A stretch of 64,000 bases of DNA from contig NZ_CP128847.1 of the NCBI RefSeq assembly GCF_030388665.1, forward strand, positions 1-64,000. Reading direction: 5' to 3'. Made by a program: the position numbers and the translations under genes. The notes beneath the pieces are model-generated. The model did no database searches. It had not been told where the DNA came from and saw only the letters and a list, made by a program, of their open reading frames with translations. Shown here piece by piece: positions 1 to 56,263 of this stretch (its first letter is position 1; each line of letters starts with the position of its first letter). This stretch comes from Streptomyces flavofungini. Lineage in GTDB: Bacteria > Actinomycetota > Actinomycetes > Streptomycetales > Streptomycetaceae.

Positions 1-135
1 CGGACACCACTGGAGGAGGCGAGTAAGGAGGATGCGGCCCTGCTCGGTTGGCGCATGCCGCTGGCGGCGTGGCTGACCGCGATCTGCTCGTTTCATCGTA
101 GGTCACGGGCTACTCAGTTGCTTTGCGGCGAGTGA
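1..135 (+). other. Window edge, possible 3' end of a gene
   Basis: Frame 1 is open from the window edge to a TGA at 133-135 and could be the tail of a plus-strand gene cut by the window. The roughly 44 encoded residues show no recognisable domain. The stretch overlaps the 3' end of the convergent minus-strand gene that stops at 103, so this may be chance. Confidence 0.15.
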
Positions 136-2262
136 TCTGGCCTGCTGAAGGGTGAGGCCCCACAGGCTGATGAGCGAGATGCCGTCGGCGGACACTGTCT
201 CTCCCGCGCCCCAGTAGGGCATGAACTCATTCGTCAGATACGGCGGGAGAAGCAGCACCTCGCGCAGATGCCGTAGCACTGCCTGTTCGACGGCGATGGC
301 GTCGTCCACGGTCGCCCGGTTCAGCGTGCGGAAGAGGAGCCACCCTTCGCGGAGGTGGTTCTTGCGCCGCCGGGACCATGCTCCTTGTCCGGATATTCCG
401 ATCTTGTGGGCCAGGTGCACGGGCTGCGTGATCACGTATACAAGGCCGGGCTCGCCGTACTTGATACCGCCCACCGCGCAATAGCGACATCTGCCGCCGG
501 CTCGCACACGGGTCAGCGTCGGCCTCACCTCCCGGCCGCAGTGCATGCATCGACAACGCCAGGAAGCCCTGGCGTTGTCGTACGGTTCTAGCGGCTCCAG
601 CCCTGCCGACAGCATGACGTCCGCGGCGACGTCGTCAGTTATCCGCTGGCGACCTGCGCAGTACAAACACCCGCTCTCGCGGCGGAGTACGTTTCCGAGC
701 CGGGGTGACACGCGGTTTCCGCACCGCACGCACCGGCACGGCCACGGCAGGCCGCGGCCGGGGTAGGGGCCAAGTGGTTCCAGGCCCGCCGCCTGCATCG
801 TCTCCTCGGCCTCGGCGGAGTCCAGCCGGCGCTTCAGGCCTGCCCGGTCGCTGCCGCAGTAGCGGCAGCCGTTGCCCCGGCGTACCGTCTCCAGTCGGGG
901 ACTTACCTCCCGTCCGCAGGTCAGGCACCGGCAGCGCCATGGCATCCGCGCGTTCACATACGTCTCAAGCGGTTCGAGGCCCGCCGCTCGCATGTCCTGT
1001 TCGGCCTGGGCTCTGTCGGCGCGCAGGTTGTCGTTCCGAGTACGGCAGTGGCGGCAGCCGTGGCCCTGCCGGACAGTCGAGTACCGGGGCGTGACTTCGT
1101 GGCCGCAGGCAGTGCAGCGGCACCGCCAGCGGTCGTTGACGCCAGGAAACGGTTCAAGCGGTTCGAGGCCAGCTTCTCGCATCGCCGCATCGGCGGTCTC
1201 CGGGGCGGTCCGCGGCCCGAGCCGTCTTCCCCGTCTGGCTGTTGTGGAGCAGTGACGGCACCTCCCGCCCTTGCGGACCGCGCTCAGCCGAGGAGCCACC
1301 TCGTTGCCGCACTGCCTGCACCGGCACTTCCAGGCCGTGCTGCTGTTGGTGTACGGCTCCAGGGGTTCGAACCCGGCCGCACGCATTTGCTGGAGTGCCA
1401 CCTCGTGCGGGATTCGGGTGATGGCCTGGGCACACTGCGGGCAACCCCTACCCCTGCGGATGCGGCTCAGCGTAGGGGCTACTTCGTGTCCGCACGTGAG
1501 GCACCTGCACCTCCAGGCGGTGTTCCTGCTCTTGTACGGCTCCAGCGGTTCGAGGCCCGCCGAGTGCATGTCGCGCACGGCTTCCTCTTCGGAGATCCGT
1601 GGTCGGCCTCGGCGATTGCAGTGACGGCAGCCCATCCCCGACCGAACGTTGTCCAGGCGCGGTGAGACTTCGTTCCCGCAGTTCATGCAGCGGCAGCGCC
1701 ACGGAGTGCTCGTGGTGGACGGGTACGGCTGCAGCGGCTCGAATCCGGCCGACCGTATGTCGCGTTCCGCCGATTCAGCAGAGACGGGGCCAACGCCGGC
1801 ACAGAACCGGCACCCGCTCCCCCTTCTGATGGACTTCAGGACGGGTCGGACCTCGTTCCCGCACCGGGTGCACTGGGCACGCCAGGGGGTGTAGGTGTTC
1901 TTGAATGGCTCCAGGGGGCGCAGGCCAACTGCCAACATCTCTCGAACGGCGGCCGCCTCCGTAGTCGGTACATTGCCTGCACAAACAGGACAGCCCGCAC
2001 CGGATCGCACGCTGCCCAGGCGAGGGCGAACCTCGTCGCCGCACGTGTTGCACCGACAGCGCCACGGGGTCTTCGTGTTGGTGTACGGCTCCAAAGGCTC
2101 GAATCCGGCCGCGCGCATGGTCGCAGCGGCGTCAGCAGGCGAGATAGGAGCAGGCACAACGGGCAGGTTAGAGCGCTCTGGGGCGGCCTGGGACGCGACG
2201 GCTCTAGCGGCGCCCTTCCGCGAGTACCAGCAGGACAGGACATGCCTTCCCGGACCGTACAA
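103..2262 (-). CDS. Nine-repeat zinc-finger protein with C-terminal GIY-YIG-like nuclease domain
   Basis: The protein has 719 residues if read from the TTG at 2262, the most upstream possible start; no clear ribosome site fixes it. Residues 49-594 hold nine tandem units of 60-68 aa. Each has an entry helix (AGxEPLEPY), a W(R)CRCxxCGxEVxP motif and a closing GCxxC, so each offers one Cys4 zinc site; repeat 2 has AQC in place of CRC. Residues about 606-690 resemble the T5orf172/MUG113 branch of the GIY-YIG nuclease superfamily: VYVI near 608-611, KIGIS at 620-624, a basic stretch with H636, and a Glu near 659. By inference it is a modular DNA-binding nuclease, such as a homing-type or defence nuclease. 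It sits convergent to nothing visible and just downstream of the lasso cluster, separated from it by a hairpin. Both cellular role and target are unknown. Confidence 0.75.
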   Translation of the reverse strand: MYGPGRHVLSCWYSRKGAARAVASQAAPERSNLPVVPAPISPADAAATMRAAGFEPLEPYTNTKTPWRCRCNTCGDEVRPRLGSVRSGAGCPVCAGNVPTTEAAAVREMLAVGLRPLEPFKNTYTPWRAQCTRCGNEVRPVLKSIRRGSGCRFCAGVGPVSAESAERDIRSAGFEPLQPYPSTTSTPWRCRCMNCGNEVSPRLDNVRSGMGCRHCNRRGRPRISEEEAVRDMHSAGLEPLEPYKSRNTAWRCRCLTCGHEVAPTLSRIRRGRGCPQCAQAITRIPHEVALQQMRAAGFEPLEPYTNSSTAWKCRCRQCGNEVAPRLSAVRKGGRCRHCSTTARRGRRLGPRTAPETADAAMREAGLEPLEPFPGVNDRWRCRCTACGHEVTPRYSTVRQGHGCRHCRTRNDNLRADRAQAEQDMRAAGLEPLETYVNARMPWRCRCLTCGREVSPRLETVRRGNGCRYCGSDRAGLKRRLDSAEAEETMQAAGLEPLGPYPGRGLPWPCRCVRCGNRVSPRLGNVLRRESGCLYCAGRQRITDDVAADVMLSAGLEPLEPYDNARASWRCRCMHCGREVRPTLTRVRAGGRCRYCAVGGIKYGEPGLVYVITQPVHLAHKIGISGQGAWSRRRKNHLREGWLLFRTLNRATVDDAIAVEQAVLRHLREVLLLPPYLTNEFMPYWGAGETVSADGISLISLWGLTLQQARSLAAKQLSSP

Positions 2263-2268
2263 GCATCA

Positions 2269-2296
2269 GGGGGCGCCGGCTCTCGCCAGCGCCCCC
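2269..2296 (-). terminator. Hairpin after the lasso operon
   Basis: GGGGGCGC at 2269-2276 pairs perfectly with GCGCCCCC at 2289-2296 across a 12-nt loop, 17 nt beyond the stop of the methyltransferase gene. It probably ends the lasso transcript and insulates the downstream nuclease gene. Confidence 0.55.
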
Positions 2297-2312
2297 TTCC
2301 GTGCGGGAACTG

Positions 2313-3467
2313 CTACGCGTGCTTTGGGCAGTGGTCATTCAGGCGCCATTCGACCGGGTGGTACACCGGCTCGTCGGCCTCGGTGCGCTCGAAGACGGTG
2401 CGGTAGTCGGCGATGGCGGGTCGGCCGAGGTCGGTCCACTGCTGTACGAGGGTGGTGAGGTCGTCGGCGATGGCCGTGTCGCCGACGTGGTGGAGGTGGC
2501 CGGTGCGCTGGATCCAGGCGGTGCCACGGCTGGGGTCGTGGAGGCAGGCCATGCCCTGGGCGGGGTCGAGGCCGTTGATGTAGGCGCGGGTGGTGCGGCC
2601 GGTCTGGGCACCGAGGTGGAACCACAGGTCGTAGTAGGCGTCGCCGTCCAGGACGGGGCCGGTGTTCGTGCGGGTGACGAGGTCTTGGGCGGGCAGGGGT
2701 TCGGTCAGGGCCGGGGTCTGGCCGTCGGGCCAGGCGTACAGCGGTCCGGTCGCCGCCATGAAGTCGCTGGACATCACGCCGCGGCCGGTGAGCCGTTGCC
2801 CGTCGCGGTGGACGGTGAGGGTGGGGTGGAAGCCGCCGTGGGCGACGGGGACGACGATGAGGCCGTCGTCGGTGAGCTGGTCGAGCCAGTGGGGGGAGAT
2901 GCCGGTGACGCCGCAGGTGACCACGATCCGGTCGTAGGGGCCCTTGGCCGGGTGTCCGAGGTAGCCGTCGGCGGTGAGGGCGGTGACATTCTTCTCTCCG
3001 GCCCGTTCGGCGGCCTGGGCCGCTTCGGTGACGATGACCTCGGAGACGTCGATGGTGATGACCTCGGCGCCGGTGATGGCGGCGATCAGGGAGGCGTTGT
3101 AGCCGGTCCCGGCCCCGATCTCCAGGACCTTCATGCCGGGGGTGAGCTGGAGGGCTTCGAGCATGGCGGCGATGACGCGGGGCTGGGAGGTGGAGCTGTA
3201 GCGTCCGGCGGCGTCGCTGCTCTTGGGGACGTGGGTCATCAGGGCGGTGTCGGAGTAGATGCGGTCCAGCAGGTCGCCTGCGGGCTCGGCGGGCACGGGG
3301 ACGAAACGGCCGCTGGTGTAGTAGCCGCCGGGCAGGAACAGGTGCCGGGGCACAGTGGCGAAGGCCCGCTCCACCGGGGTGGTGCGGATCGCGCCGCGTT
3401 CGCGCAGGGCGGTCGCGTAGGCGGCCATGCGGGCGGTCAGGGACGGGCTGGTGCTCTGGTCGGTCAT
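2313..3467 (-). CDS. PIMT-like O-methyltransferase of the lasso cluster
   Basis: This 384-aa protein is homologous to protein-L-isoaspartate O-methyltransferases. It has the pre-motif SSTSQP (about 91-96), SAM motif I VLEIGAGTGYNAS (about 114-126) and an acidic beta-2 end (ITIDVS). Ordinary PIMTs have about 210-230 aa; here about 160 extra residues follow the catalytic domain, as in enzymes tied to modified peptides. Its ATG overlaps the stop of the leader-peptidase gene, so it is the last gene of the lasso operon. PIMT homologues in known lasso clusters (lihuanodin, cellulonodin-2) methylate an Asp side chain of the threaded peptide, which then closes to an aspartimide. By inference this enzyme does the same to an Asp in the adjacent core peptide. 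Confidence 0.88.
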   Translation of the reverse strand: MTDQSTSPSLTARMAAYATALRERGAIRTTPVERAFATVPRHLFLPGGYYTSGRFVPVPAEPAGDLLDRIYSDTALMTHVPKSSDAAGRYSSTSQPRVIAAMLEALQLTPGMKVLEIGAGTGYNASLIAAITGAEVITIDVSEVIVTEAAQAAERAGEKNVTALTADGYLGHPAKGPYDRIVVTCGVTGISPHWLDQLTDDGLIVVPVAHGGFHPTLTVHRDGQRLTGRGVMSSDFMAATGPLYAWPDGQTPALTEPLPAQDLVTRTNTGPVLDGDAYYDLWFHLGAQTGRTTRAYINGLDPAQGMACLHDPSRGTAWIQRTGHLHHVGDTAIADDLTTLVQQWTDLGRPAIADYRTVFERTEADEPVYHPVEWRLNDHCPKHA

Positions 3468-3901
3468 CGGCTTCCTCCGGGTGGGACGGCCAGGGTGATG
3501 GTGAACGTGGCGATGTACGGGGGGTCTTCACCGATCGCGGCGCCGTCGGCTTCGACCCATGCGTGGGAGGCCAGGGGCGGGAAGCGCACGCCGCTCTTCC
3601 AGGTGGGCCAGGTACCGGCGAGGCGGCACAGCAGGGCGGTGGCGATCGAGCGGGGCAGGCAGCCGTAGCCGCTGCCGCAGCGCGGGCTGAGAGTCGTCAC
3701 CACCGCGCGGGCCCGAGCGGCCTGGTCACCGGTGGCGGGTGCGGCCCGGCGGGCGAGGAAGCTCAGGAGGCTGCGCAGCCGGTCCGGGCGGGCGGCGAGG
3801 GCGGCGGTGACCAGGTGGGCCGCCCCGACGGCGAGATGTCCGGTGATCTGTTCGGTGCGGGTGAGGCGGACACGTTCGGGCAGGGCGACGAGGGTGCTCA
3901 C
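3464..3901 (-). CDS. Lasso leader peptidase B2 (transglutaminase-like)
   Basis: This 145-aa protein belongs to the lasso B2 family, cysteine proteases with a transglutaminase-like fold. A likely triad is visible: Cys81 in GCLPRSIA, His113 in SHAWVEADG and Asp119 just after it. It removes the leader from the lasso precursor after the RRE protein presents it to the peptidase. The ATG overlaps the stop of the RRE gene (ATGA), and the next gene starts inside its own stop, indicating translational coupling. Length and motif order are normal for a split actinobacterial B protein. Confidence 0.92.
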   Translation of the reverse strand: MSTLVALPERVRLTRTEQITGHLAVGAAHLVTAALAARPDRLRSLLSFLARRAAPATGDQAARARAVVTTLSPRCGSGYGCLPRSIATALLCRLAGTWPTWKSGVRFPPLASHAWVEADGAAIGEDPPYIATFTITLAVPPGGSR

Positions 3902-4155
3902 CGCGCCTCCAGCAACTGCAGGCCAGTCAGGCTGGCGGTCAGTACGCGGACGTCGGTGGCCGCCTGGTCGGCGCTGATGCCGTAGGCGGCGACCAGGGCC
4001 GCGGCTCCCTCTTGTTCGCTGTGGCCGAGCAGGGCGGTGAGGGCGGTGGCGGCGGAGTCGTTGAGGGTGAAGTAGCCGCCGGTGCGGGTGTTGAAGAGCA
4101 TCGGTGAGCCGTCGGCGTCTATGCGTTCGACGCCGCGGGCGAGGCGATAGGTCAT
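3898..4155 (-). CDS. Lasso RRE protein B1 (PqqD-like)
   Basis: This 85-aa protein has the PqqD/RiPP-recognition-element fold: an N-terminal beta hairpin with ADGSPMLFNTRTGGYFTLN, then helices. It binds the YxxP...GxF segment of the precursor leader and delivers it to peptidase B2 and the cyclase. The ATG at 4155 is preferred over upstream codons because AGGAGGCC lies just before it and the family consensus begins about here. It follows the cyclase gene by 20 nt and overlaps the B2 start. Confidence 0.92.
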   Translation of the reverse strand: MTYRLARGVERIDADGSPMLFNTRTGGYFTLNDSAATALTALLGHSEQEGAAALVAAYGISADQAATDVRVLTASLTGLQLLEAR

Positions 4156-4175
4156 GCTCGCTGGCCTCCTATCGG

Positions 4176-5996
4176 TCAGGGGCGGGCGGCCCGGAGCCAC
4201 AGCTCCAGGGCGACGGTCTCGGTGATGAACGCGGGCGCAAGGCGGCGGGTGGCGGCCTCGGCCAGGTGCTGGCGGAGGGCCTTCTCGTCGATCAGCCCAG
4301 CCTGGCTCAGGGCGGATCCGTGGAAGAGCTCGGCGAGTTCGCCGTGGTGGGCTGCGAGGCCGGTCCAGATCTCGTGGTTGTAGTGGCCCTTGTCCCGCCT
4401 GATCAGTAGGCCCGGCGGGGCGAGCGGGGTGACGGCCGCCGTCAGCAGCGGCTTGGGGGCCCAGGGATCGGTCCGTTCCTCCGGCAGTGTTGCCAGGGCC
4501 GTCTCGATCACCGACCGGTCCAGGTAGGGGAAGTGGCCGGGTACCCCGGCTGCGTGCATCGCGTCCCGGTACAGGCTCGCGCGGCGGGCGACGGACCGGA
4601 TCCGCGCCACCGTCCCGTGGGTGGCGATGTCCCCGCAGACCGGCTCGGCCGCCTCCGCTGCGGCCCGCAGCTCCTGCCGCAGATCACGGATCACCTCGGG
4701 CGCCGTCCACGGCGGAAGGCGCGGTGGTGCCTCCCAGCCGGCCAGGGCGGCCGCCGGGCTGGCCGGGGCGATGAGCTGGTCGGCGCCCCGGATGAGCCAC
4801 TGCCGGTAGGTACCCGCCGTGGCCGCCGCCCGTGCCAGGCTCAGGCTGCTGGTGCGGTTGAGGGCCGCGTGGCCGCGCAGGTGCCACCACGCGCGGTGGA
4901 CACTGCGGGCGGCGGCCCGGGGCAGGTAGGACAGCGGGGCAAGGAGAGCTTCGTCGCCGCCCTGGCCGTTGAGGTGCGCGCTGCTTCCCCGTTCGGCCAG
5001 CACCCGCAGGGTGTGGCGGAAGCGGGCCGCCGAGGCGGCGAACGGGGCGGGCTCTGCCAGCGCGAACTGCGAGCTCTGGAGGTCCTGGAAGATACGCGGA
5101 TAGGAGCCGGGGTCCAGGACCAGGTGGTCCACCCCTTCAAGCAGCCCGGCTGTGCGGCGGGCCCACCGCTCATCGGGGTTGTCCGCTGCCCGCGAGCCGA
5201 TGGTGACCAGCACGGTGGTGGCCGTCGGGCGGGCGCGGGCGGCCAGGGCCGCTAGCGCCGCCGAGTCCAGCCCACCCGACAGTTGCACGCTCGCCACCGG
5301 CGGGGAGGCCACCCGGGCGGCGACCGCCCGGGCCAGCGCCTCCCGCAGCCGCTCAGCCCCGGCATCGAGCGGGAGAACGGGCTCGGGCGGTGTCCAGTAG
5401 CGGGTGACGGCCACCGGGCGGGACGGGCTCAACACTGCCTTGGACCCCGGGGGGATCGGTGTGACGCCCTGGTACGGACTGCGGCTGAACACCAGCGGTG
5501 ACGGCGCGCTCGGAGCCAGCAGCCGCAGGGCCGCCCACCGTCGGTCTACCCCGGTGCCCGCCGCGTCCGCCAGATGCTGCGGGCTGTTGGACAGCACCCA
5601 CCCGCCCTCGACGCACGCGTAGTACAGCCGGTTCAGGCCCGCAACGTCCCCCCGCGCACTGCGGACGCCCCGGCGTGCGGTGATCAGGTAGTAGCTGCCG
5701 GGCAGCGCGGCCAGCTCCTCGTCCTGGCCGGTCCCGGCTGCCCTGGTGGCCAGGTCCCGCAGGCGGGCGGTGCTGACCGGGCAGGACCCGATCAGCACCG
5801 CCTTCAGCGGACCGGCCGTGGCCGTTCGCAGTTGCTTCCCCCACCCGGACGCGATCAGCCAGGGCCGACCGGAGGTGTGCTTGAAGGTGCGGGCCGCCTC
5901 CTGCCCCGAAAGCCGCCGGGCCAAAGGCCCGGCGGCGTCGTCATCGGGCAGAACGCAGAACCACGGCGGCCTGTACGCACCGGCCGCCTCGGTCAC
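4176..5996 (-). CDS. Lasso peptide cyclase C (asparagine-synthetase-like)
   Basis: This 606-aa protein has a degenerate glutaminase-like N-terminal domain followed by an ATP-pyrophosphatase domain with the signature SGGLDS at about residues 240-245. It adenylates the side chain of the acceptor Asp/Glu in the core and joins it to the new N-terminus, closing the macrolactam ring around the tail. The GTG start at 5996 overlaps the precursor stop codon (GTGA). A longer reading frame runs upstream through the precursor gene but is not a plausible start. Length is typical for actinobacterial cyclases. No dedicated ABC exporter is found beside it. Confidence 0.93.
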   Translation of the reverse strand: MTEAAGAYRPPWFCVLPDDDAAGPLARRLSGQEAARTFKHTSGRPWLIASGWGKQLRTATAGPLKAVLIGSCPVSTARLRDLATRAAGTGQDEELAALPGSYYLITARRGVRSARGDVAGLNRLYYACVEGGWVLSNSPQHLADAAGTGVDRRWAALRLLAPSAPSPLVFSRSPYQGVTPIPPGSKAVLSPSRPVAVTRYWTPPEPVLPLDAGAERLREALARAVAARVASPPVASVQLSGGLDSAALAALAARARPTATTVLVTIGSRAADNPDERWARRTAGLLEGVDHLVLDPGSYPRIFQDLQSSQFALAEPAPFAASAARFRHTLRVLAERGSSAHLNGQGGDEALLAPLSYLPRAAARSVHRAWWHLRGHAALNRTSSLSLARAAATAGTYRQWLIRGADQLIAPASPAAALAGWEAPPRLPPWTAPEVIRDLRQELRAAAEAAEPVCGDIATHGTVARIRSVARRASLYRDAMHAAGVPGHFPYLDRSVIETALATLPEERTDPWAPKPLLTAAVTPLAPPGLLIRRDKGHYNHEIWTGLAAHHGELAELFHGSALSQAGLIDEKALRQHLAEAATRRLAPAFITETVALELWLRAARP

Positions 5997-6172
5997 GAGC
6001 GGCTGGTCGGCGCGAACTCGGGCGTGTAGTACTGCCCGGCATCCGAATCGTCGCTCTGCCCGATGCTGACGTCCCCGAGGGTGTCGGCGGCGAACGACCC
6101 CACCGCCACCACCTTCGGCGCCTCGTACGCGGGCGAACCCGTCGACTGCTCGCCGCTGGTCACCTTGCTCAT
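5993..6172 (-). CDS. Lasso peptide precursor A
   Basis: This 59-aa precursor was called from its context and motif. The ATG at 6172 has AGGAG seven bases upstream; a GTG six bases earlier is too close to that site. The leader carries the actinobacterial recognition pattern Y16-x2-P19-x-V-x3-G25-x5-T31-x, predicting cleavage after Leu32. The core is then 27 residues beginning Gly-Asp-Val-Ser-Ile-Gly. Gly1 and Asp9 fit a nine-membered class II ring. Asp2, Asp10 and Asp12 are further acidic residues, and Tyr16-Tyr17 could be steric plugs; the tail ends Thr-Ser-Arg-Ser. Asp10 or Asp12, if not the ring acceptor, is a candidate for methylation and aspartimide formation by the clustered methyltransferase. 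Ring size and modification site are inference. Confidence 0.88.
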   Translation of the reverse strand: MSKVTSGEQSTGSPAYEAPKVVAVGSFAADTLGDVSIGQSDDSDAGQYYTPEFAPTSRS

Positions 6173-6202
6173 AGCCACTCTCCTGTTGTGCCGGTGGCGG
6201 AC

Positions 6203-39979: not shown

Positions 39980-40212
39980 CTCATGCTCAGGACAGTGGCG
40001 TTGGGGACTTTAGACCAGGGCACTGACATTACGGGCTTCCCTCCGTAGGCCACCGACTCACACGGGGTGTCGATCAGATAGCCGGGTTTCGCGAACGCGG
40101 TGTGAATCACGGTGCACACGTGCGGGCTCCCTCTGGCGTTGCCCAAGACGCTGGTCGCCTCGTGAAGGCGCTCATCAGCATCGGGGGAAGCACATCCGGA
40201 AAGGAGGATCGG

Positions 40213-53726: not shown

Positions 53727-53760
53727 CGGTGGCCGACCCCGAACCCGGGGCCGGCCACCG
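53727..53760 (+). terminator. 15-bp hairpin before traB
   Basis: 53727-53741 pairs with 53746-53760 (one mismatch, 4-nt loop). It lies 39 bases after the preceding stop and 68 bases before traB, and may attenuate or punctuate the message. Confidence 0.55.
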
Positions 53761-53827
53761 GCTGTCCTGCTGCCCCTCTCTTCCTCGCCGACCCGCCCCT
53801 CGCCTGCGCGAACAGGAGCCCTCCCCC

Positions 53828-56263
53828 ATGTCGATGCGTCACTGGGACTGGTCGCTGCCCAGCGGCCACACCACCTTCCTCGGATACGCCACTGAGACGG
53901 CCATCACCACGGTGGCGCTCGCCCCGATCACCGGACTGCCCTGGCAGGCCGCCGCTCTCACCCTGGGCGGCGCGGCCGCGGCTGGAGCCGTCCACGACCT
54001 GCGCGCGGGCACCACCATCGGCACCATCACCACCCGGGCCGTCTCCTGGCTGACGGCGACCACCTGGGCGTCCTGGGCGCTGGCGACCGCGCCGCTGACC
54101 TCCACCGGCTGGGCGACCGGCCTGGGCCTGGCCACCGTCGGCATCGCCGCGAACGCGTCCGCGAACCGCACCGAGTCCACCCGCTCCGAACGCAAGAAAC
54201 TCCTTCAGCTGCGTCGCGACTCCGTCGGCATCCTGCGCGACTGGGAAGGCCGCATGGCCCGCGTCGCCCGGATCGAGAAGTGCGTCGGCAAGGACGTACA
54301 GCACTGGCCCGGCAAGGTCGGCTACACCGTGGAGATGGACCTGCCCTCCGGCGGGACCACCGTCGAGGACCTCAACGGCTATGGCCCCAAGTTCGCCGGC
54401 GACCTGCGCCTGCCCGACGGCTGCGGCGTCGAGATCTTCCCCGGCGCCAACCGCGGCTCGATCCTGATCGAGGTCACCCTCAAAGACGTCATCACCGAGG
54501 ACATCCCCTACCCCGAGGACTACTCCGAGATCACCCTCACCGAGCGGTTCCCGTTCGGCCTGTACCGCAACGGCGAGCACGCGCTCGGCGGCCTCTGCAA
54601 CGACTGCGGCATCCTCGTGGGCGAGACCGACGCGGGCAAGACCAACACCCTGCGCGTAGTCACCGCCCAACTCGCCCGCATGCCCGACGCCCTGATCTGG
54701 GCCATCGACACCACCGGCGGCGGCGTCGCCCTCCCCTGGATCACCCCGTGGGCCACCGAGGGCCTCGCCTCCGCGCCGATCGTCGACTGGATCGCGCACA
54801 CCGACAACGAAGCCCGCCTCATGCTCAAGATGGCCGCCGAGATCATCGCAGCCCGCAAGGCCGGCTACCAGCAGCTCATGCGCGAACAGAAGACCGACAA
54901 CAAGCTCCCCATCAGCGCGGAGATCCCCGGCATCGTCATCATCTGCGACGAGACCGCCTCCCTGCCGTACGACATCAAGGAGATGATCGACAAGGTCGAT
55001 CAGGAGGGCCGCGCGATGCGCGTGCGCACCCTCAAGGCAGCGCTGCGCGCCACGCAGGACGCCATCACCGCGATGATGAAACTGATGTCGAAGTGGCGCG
55101 TCGGCATGACCGTCTCCGACGCCGAAGAGCTCGCCTACCTCTTCCCCGGCTACGTCAAGATCGATCCGAAGGACGCGCCCGTCGCCGGGTCCGGGTGGAA
55201 CATGCACACCCGGCTCGGGCCGAAGAAGCCCACAGCGATGAAGGTGTGGCGCCTGGTCGACGAACTGATGGACACCATCTGCGCAGCCACCGCCGCACGG
55301 CGCCCCAAGCTCGATGAGCTGTCCGCCGCCGTCGACGGCGGCGAGCACTACCCGCAGCGGTGGGCGCGCACCCTGCCCGACCTGTACAAGGGGCAGAAAC
55401 TCACCGAGTCCGCGCAGCACGCCGTCGACAACGCCGGAGAGATCATCGCCGCCGCGACACTGCTCGCCTCCGACCCGGCCCCGCCTGCGGCGGCTGGCAC
55501 CCCGGCGGCCCCGGCTGCGCCCGTCGGCTTCGAAGGCTTCGGCGGCGCGGCGGAGATGTTCGCCGCTGTCACCGCGAGCCTGGACCCGACCGCCAAGCAA
55601 GTAGCCTTCTCCGCCAGCCCGGCACCGGCCCCCGAGGGGCAGGCCGCCGGGCTGGCACCACTCCCCCGCCCCACCCGCCCGGTCGACCCGCGCGAGCAGG
55701 GCTGGGAACTCCTGGCCGCCGCAGGACAGACCGGGTACACGCCCAAGCTCCTGCACGAGGCGCTCAAGCAGCTCCTGGGCGAGGCCACGCCCGCCTCACG
55801 CACGGTCAGCGGCTGGCTCCAGGGGTGGGCCAAGGACGGCAAGGCCATCAAGGACGACTCCGGGCAGTACACCCGCTACATCGCCCGCGAGGCCGCCGCC
55901 GCACCGGCAAGCATCACCCCGGCCGCCCCGGCCGGAGCGAAAACCACGGTGCTGCCCGACGGCGTCGACGGGGCCCTGGTCCTCCAGGCCACCGAGCTGC
56001 TCGTCACTACCCAGTTCGGGTCGACGTCGATGCTGCAGCGCAAGCTGCGCCTCGGCTTCGCCCCCGCCGGAAACCTGATGGACTTCCTCCACCAGCTCGG
56101 CATCGTCGGCCCCGCCGACGGCTCCAAGGCACGCGAAATCCTGGTCTCGACGTCAGACCTGGACGCGACCATGATGAGGCTGGCCGACGAACTCGGCTAC
56201 ACCACCCGCGACTTGGGCGCGCTGGGCCTCGCGGCTGCCGCCGCTTCGCATGCCAAGGAGTGA
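53828..56263 (+). CDS. traB: TraB/FtsK-type DNA translocase
   Basis: This 811-aa protein has two to three N-terminal membrane helices (about 20-108), an FtsK-like motor with Walker A GETDAGKT (265-272) and Walker B GIVIICDE (368-375), an Ala/Pro linker and a C-terminal winged-helix domain (about 712-775; [20 protein letters not shown], then [17 protein letters not shown]) of the FtsK gamma type. TraB proteins transport plasmid DNA between mycelia as double strands and read the clt site with the gamma domain. The gamma helix should recognise short repeats such as those at 51393-51518. It is the key transfer gene of the module. Confidence 0.93.

Follow-up and report, generated by a model that had tools for sequence, protein, structure and literature searches.

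Homing endonucleases of the T5orf172 type carrying repeated CapR/DUF723/DUF4379-type fingers are reported from ICP1 and other phages in the retrieved passages of Barth et al. 2023 (PMC10448857); the passages available on these finger arrays contained no description of how their DNA is chosen. Our literature search returned no paper on an actinobacterial subfamily of array nucleases. Here we describe a gene encoding nine finger-like units followed by a GIY-YIG-like nuclease domain, located at the beginning of the window, a stretch of Streptomyces flavofungini DNA that makes up the opening 64 kb of contig C2 (160,719 bases, in a genome of 9.36 Mb and four contigs). Since phage relatives are described in the retrieved part of PMC10448857, this kind of system is known, and the preliminary description of the locus, which had considered the arrangement uncharacterised, has to be corrected on this point. 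Judged from its sequence, the encoded protein (hereafter the query) is a divergent variant of an architecture already known from phages, found on plasmids and metagenome contigs and with a nuclease below Pfam cut-offs.

We lean towards the interpretation that the gene encodes a mobile, homing-type, free-standing site-specific endonuclease endowed with a modular DNA reader, one of the possibilities raised in the preliminary description and supported by the present data. This estimate stands because it rests on invariant residues and on the family pattern. Nine zinc-binding treble-clef fingers on short linkers would line the DNA and jointly specify a single long site; beside it the C-terminal GIY-YIG domain would nick or cut, and repair from the gene-carrying copy would spread the gene among plasmids.

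The finger array and the nuclease domain

The open reading frame (ORF) 103..2262 on the minus strand is the sole array-gene match in the four-contig genome. This single stop-free frame of 719 codons had been taken as the gene up to position 2262. In just over half of the relatives (61 of 120), residue 9 opens the first unit, a position reproduced exactly in the query by a start at GTG 2155-2157, and TTG 2262 lies only 5 bases past a strong hairpin. For these reasons the gene probably spans 103..2157, rather than starting at TTG 2262. The features are listed below, with residues counted along the 719-codon frame and units delimited by the unit profile.

103..2157, minus strand: array nuclease gene in its likely extent, GTG at 2157-2155, 684 aa, placed by the first-unit position in relatives; the open frame continues to TTG 2262
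1978..2133, minus strand: unit 1, residues 44-95
1798..1950, minus strand: unit 2, residues 105-155, without the extra Cys ahead of the first knuckle
1618..1770, minus strand: unit 3, residues 165-215
1429..1584, minus strand: unit 4, residues 227-278, with the best Pfam DUF4379 stretch at residues 242-279
1246..1398, minus strand: unit 5, residues 289-339
1045..1194, minus strand: unit 6, residues 357-406
853..1008, minus strand: unit 7, residues 419-470
655..813, minus strand: unit 8, residues 484-536
475..627, minus strand: unit 9, residues 546-596
118..459, minus strand: GIY-YIG-like nuclease domain, residues 602-715
367..369, minus strand: Arg632, corresponding by motif order to the catalytic Arg of GIY-YIG enzymes, invariant in 93/93 rows
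286..288, minus strand: Glu659, corresponding by motif order to their metal-binding Glu, invariant in 93/93 rows
2268..2297, no strand: hairpin in the gap that separates the methyltransferase stop (2313) from the array gene, 13-nt arms, 92% complementary, -34.7 kcal/mol, z -3.9

All nine units display a CxxC...CxxC arrangement within the pattern W-x2-x-C/H-x2-C-G ... C-x2-C, with 50-53 residues per profile match and starts 60-68 residues apart. Pairwise identity was 43-56% among eight aligned unit stretches, units 1 and 2 falling together in one of them. Since the unit profile was seeded with the query's own units, its E-values are circular; independent support was provided by the Pfam DUF4379 treble clef (PF14311), whose gathering score was passed (26.8 vs 24.5, with only two stretches passing individually), and by two PHROG families called endonuclease (1.3e-67 and 6.6e-56). 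At the sequence level the nine units look like a divergent DUF4379 subtype. The query remained below the gathering score of the CapR homology domain (PF21817; 14.2 vs 24.2), and weak Pfam/NCBIfam matches to bMG10, HypA, CDC24_OB3 and Radical_SAM were taken as an effect of the Cys-rich repeats.

With the unit profile, 1104 units were detected in a set of 130 proteins made up of the query, 120 relatives and nine plasmid proteins. Each protein has 5 to 10 units; homologues with differing repeat counts are those that the preliminary description had proposed to look for. Other array lengths are under-sampled, since the protein search admits only 0.55-1.75 times the query length. Among the putative metal ligands of the 1104 units, position 28 was Cys in 59% and His in 40%, position 31 was Cys in 99% and positions 49 and 52 were Cys in 100%. 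The choice between Cys and His at position 28 changed in 1% of comparisons between orthologue pairs vs 32% between units (540 pairs, 104 proteins).

The C-terminal domain, of about 120 residues, is GIY-YIG-like as judged by its invariant residues and by its predicted order of secondary structure. Tyr609, Lys620, Gly622, Arg632 and Glu659 were invariant in 93/93 aligned proteins, query included, and the superfamily signature Tyr, (Y/K)-x-Gly, Arg, Glu occurred in motif order in every row; from GIY-YIG enzymes we assume a catalytic role for Arg632 and a metal-binding role for Glu659. A tail of 110-148 residues followed the last unit in 129 of the 130 proteins. The unit profile, the DUF4379 and PHROG matches and these residues bear out nine tandem Cys modules joined to a nuclease-like domain, as had been described from the letters of the window.

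T5orf172 (PF10544) was the best sub-threshold Pfam match of the query (15.9 bits vs a gathering score of 20) and was also matched in 6/10 relatives, always below cut-off. Because the gathering score was not reached, we call the nuclease T5orf172-like rather than a member of the family, and propose only that it may work like T5orf172 enzymes. The full-length predicted structure was confident (pLDDT 86), and in the list of solved structures Slx1 nucleases ranked first, tied with unrelated rows, a moderate match for the predicted fold. Foldseek against PDB gave a best E of only 0.54 and a sequence search of solved structures five weak matches, the best with an E of 0.09. Folded alone, the nuclease domain reached pLDDT 40, and this model was not used in the fold search. 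Viral structural neighbours included proteins annotated as zinc-ribbon, CapR, homing or restriction endonuclease.

Distribution and mobility of the relatives

In the protein database 1381 of 8000 scored candidates matched the query at E<=1e-3, so chance resemblance is not an issue; the nuclease region alone yielded 359 candidates, none at this threshold. Among 296 genomes of the phylum, the nuclease region alone matched three (own genome included) and the full alignment nine. Any match occurred in 56 of 199 genomes of the genus, own genome included, many covering only 40-100 of 657 profile positions, and the distribution in the genus is patchy. Named plasmid records matched in 49 of 72,556 cases, 31 of these from Streptomyces and 15 covering at least 80% of the query, and phage records in 57 of 50,697, none at 60% identity or more. 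A single-protein search of genome and viral contigs confirmed no relative, a weak test since it relies on exact peptide patterns. In genome G397 two equal-scoring copies lay near opposite ends of contig C1 (138232-139113 and 11985697-11986578), as if inside terminal inverted repeats; between the first and last 6 kb of our contig C2 terminal repeats were not found.

Two settings show relatives being gained or lost: a slot on plasmids, and a block of some 3 kb whose flanks are unrelated. A 6-unit orthologue lies past a Ser/Thr kinase gene in eight linear plasmids (loci L042, L043, L045, L046, L050, L053, L054 and L055), and a gene of about 690 codons lies further on, behind other variable genes, in all of these except L053. 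In pFRL4 (L051) and pSCL3 (L052) the matching flanks are kept and the gene of about 690 codons also follows the kinase, and the stretches read contain no array units; where L050 has some 2.0 kb at the slot, L051 has 30 bases. The slot of L056 harbours a different, reversed 3-unit copy with nuclease, and L047 carries, at another location, a copy 77-80% identical to the slot orthologues. The ratio of nonsynonymous to synonymous substitution rates (dN/dS) was 0.14-0.23 for six pairs of slot orthologues; two pairs involving L047 gave 0.18-0.37. When the flanks of L047 were compared with those of the slot orthologues for a common target, no BLAST match at E<=1e-3 started outside the gene; the only common stretch, recognised by eye, was a promoter-like motif. 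Presence and absence at an otherwise conserved site was thus observed for relatives, not for the query.

The block is shared by L036, L037 and L038, where the gene is common at 93-96% DNA identity over 2.9-3.4 kb. Outside it no alignment exceeded 250 bases, and only a 65-base reverse match and a 29-base match were found at E<=0.01. The array of L038 is decayed by a stop and a 250-base gap, and in L036 a transposase gene adjoins the array gene. Inside the block, L036:10322-11032 encodes a 236-aa protein that resembles PD-(D/E)XK proteins by eye and matches nothing in Pfam or PADLOC. The region L036:12649-18942, 1.6 kb beyond the block, encodes an Avs3a defence protein (PADLOC, 1515 bits).

Finger variation, the recA-type motif and the genomic setting

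We then compared the variation of each unit column between units and between orthologues, considering the 25 columns that differed in at least 66% of unit comparisons (200 draws of 45-49 independent pairs). The fixed scaffold with few variable positions, noted earlier within the query, held across the 1104 units and in the orthologue comparisons. Positions 20, 21, 40, 41, 46, 47 and 50 vary between units and are nevertheless relatively kept between orthologues. The least orthologue divergence (0.34-0.41) was recorded for columns 47, 20, 41, 46, 51, 18, 50, 40 and 21, of which 18 and 51 were not retained as candidates because they differ less between units; helix columns 3, 4, 7 and 8 and knuckle columns 29 and 30 reached 0.49-0.64. 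In the predicted model, a short helix covers columns 39-43, and columns 44-48 make up the loop to the second knuckle. Two points weigh against a clean split of the columns: helix columns 9 and 5 (0.42 and 0.46) and column 43 (0.43) follow closely, and indels affect column 47, which has 21% gaps. Positions setting the specificity of each unit would show the pattern observed, but packing residues could give it as well.

The eight slot orthologues were 87-100% identical when aligned unit by unit, with unit order kept. Between the query and the 120 relatives no clear unit register emerged, mean identities being 0.37-0.48 in every cell and the diagonal being best in some rows only (23/120 for the first and 31/120 for the fourth unit, counted from the nuclease). 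In L036 and L037 units flank the nuclease on both sides.

The pattern TGTCAGTG-N8-TANNNT sits 109-119 bases ahead of the first unit in nine plasmid loci of the sister clade (L042, L043, L045-L047, L050 and L053-L055), of which L047 has unrelated flanks. With a spacer of 7-9 allowed, the pattern occurred 17 times in 1.34 Mb, counting both strands of all loci collected, motif loci included. Among 29 distinct array frames with enough upstream DNA, the full motif preceded eight (the ninth locus being a duplicate), and TGTCAGTG with a weaker second half preceded three (L036-L038). No such motif was found upstream of the query's array gene. The query's own genome (G000) showed 49 motif sites vs 1 for the reversed pattern, and recA lies behind one of them. 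Thirty motif loci were fetched from this genome and ten downstream genes, chosen by eye, were tested: recA, xth, dnaX and recD2 passed NCBIfam cut-offs, a DinG/YoaA-type and a pcrA-type helicase were fragment matches below cut-offs, and the remaining genes were ribosomal S6, a PhoH-like protein and two without match. An exact match to the motif was also observed in the window at 40007-40028 on the minus strand, with two more on C2 at 84513 and 117594. We take the pattern to be a putative RecA-NDp motif; the letters of that motif are not given in the literature passages found. The sister clade, not the query gene, thus carries a putative recA-type DNA-damage promoter motif. According to the retrieved text of PMC9380542, the PafBC motif of M. 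smegmatis seemed, in an initial search, to lack conservation in S. venezuelae; since this doubts conservation of the motif, attribution to PafBC is a lead only.

Speculatively, the array might be a collinear, re-codable DNA reader, in which positions 20, 21, 40, 41, 46, 47 and 50 let every treble-clef finger read a few base pairs, families swap units to reach new targets, and the sister clade is wired into the Streptomyces recA-type DNA-damage response, a proposal that we regard as rather unlikely.

Contig C2 is most likely a plasmid, because it encodes a ParA-type ATPase and an FtsK-gamma protein and shows matches to Streptomyces plasmids. The FtsK-gamma protein (window 53729-56263, plus strand, 844 aa) is perhaps a plasmid transfer protein. 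A lasso-peptide cluster occupies window 2313-6178 on the minus strand, with a leader peptide (NF033521) and a B2 protein (NF033537) above cut-off, and PqqD-like, cyclase and isoaspartate-methyltransferase-like genes below. The array gene lies directly beyond the methyltransferase gene on the same strand, as an accessory gene of the cluster would. The cluster is kept in two other genomes (84% over 4.1 kb and 74% over 3.9 kb aligned), similarity stops in both inside the final 35 bases of the methyltransferase gene, and the 9.4 and 7.7 kb read beyond it contain no array gene; the strong hairpin also separates the two. This hairpin has no T run and was not among the terminator-like sites of the terminator scan; it is perhaps the end of the lasso operon. 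Since the cluster is conserved in two genomes with no array gene in the stretches read beyond it, membership was rejected as next to impossible, and the lasso cluster is unrelated to the array nuclease.

Alternative explanations and known systems

The query might instead be a domesticated interference or defence effector, with which a plasmid cuts competing plasmids or phages through the array and without homing. Purifying selection on the slot orthologues and the retention of the array gene at one slot by eight plasmids favour this view, as do the Avs3a gene beyond the L036 block and the HEPN, TIGR02391 and TcmP genes near plasmid copies, which we presume to be linked to defence. We consider it unlikely, as none of the PADLOC-DB families matches the query protein, no known partner gene lies beside it, a single confirmed defence neighbour carries little weight among the loci read, and carriage on moving blocks is equally expected of homing genes. 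For the defence effector suggested earlier, the Avs3a gene beside one relative stands against the lack of a PADLOC match.

A role as a DNA-repair or structure-specific nuclease, with fingers holding branched or damaged DNA nicked by the GIY-YIG domain as in Slx1 or UvrC, is improbable. It would agree with the tied first rank of Slx1 in the fold list and with the full recA-type motif upstream of nine sister-clade genes (its first half in three more), a motif that precedes recA, xth, pcrA-, recD2- and dnaX-type genes of the own genome; however, the query itself lacks the motif, a repair nuclease would not need a nine-unit array differing between families, and the distribution is patchy. Least probable among these, and by a wide measure doubtful, is a catalytically idle DNA-binding regulator such as PLE CapR, thought to derive from such nucleases: CapR is presented as a domesticated relative in the passages of PMC10448857 and gave a sub-threshold match in the query, but the invariance of Arg632 and Glu659 and the nearly universal tail past the last unit weigh against it. 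The homing-type endonuclease remains our preferred reading.

What is new in this family are the specificity-like finger positions, the unit order kept in slot orthologues without a clear register in the query, the mobility at the slot and in the block, and the recA-type motif of the sister clade. With its long arrays, its sets of orthologues, its candidate specificity positions and a plasmid slot that is occupied in some records and empty in others, the family allows a direct search for a recognition code. Such a code, if it exists, would yield a modular platform for nucleases with a new type of fold, and would explain how these selfish genes find new sites; a collinear re-codable reader, if true, would be a natural modular targeting system with a fold other than that of TALE or C2H2 arrays.

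Among known nucleases, Slx1 is structure-specific, acts with its partner Slx4 and is not known to have a finger array. The plant EFFECTOR OF TRANSCRIPTION (ET) proteins resemble the query by description only, combining zinc/DNA-binding repeats, which vary in number, and a nicking domain of the GIY-YIG type; according to the retrieved passages of PMC6585611 they differ in being eukaryotic and in having GIY-YIG in the N-terminal half, and ET2 is reported there as upregulated by ionising radiation. PLE CapR, related in finger type by the sub-threshold match, is described in the available part of PMC10448857 as a repressor without nuclease and with CxxC...CxC ligands, in contrast to the C/HxxC...CxxC found here. 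The phage T5orf172 homing endonucleases of the same passages share with the query the tandem CapR/DUF723/DUF4379-type fingers and the GIY-YIG-type nuclease, and likewise have modular recombining arrays of variable presence. Unlike them, the query resides on an actinobacterial plasmid-like contig and has nine units (5-10 in the 130 proteins), its nuclease falls below the Pfam T5orf172 cut-off, and in its relatives in L036 and L037 the nuclease has units on either side.
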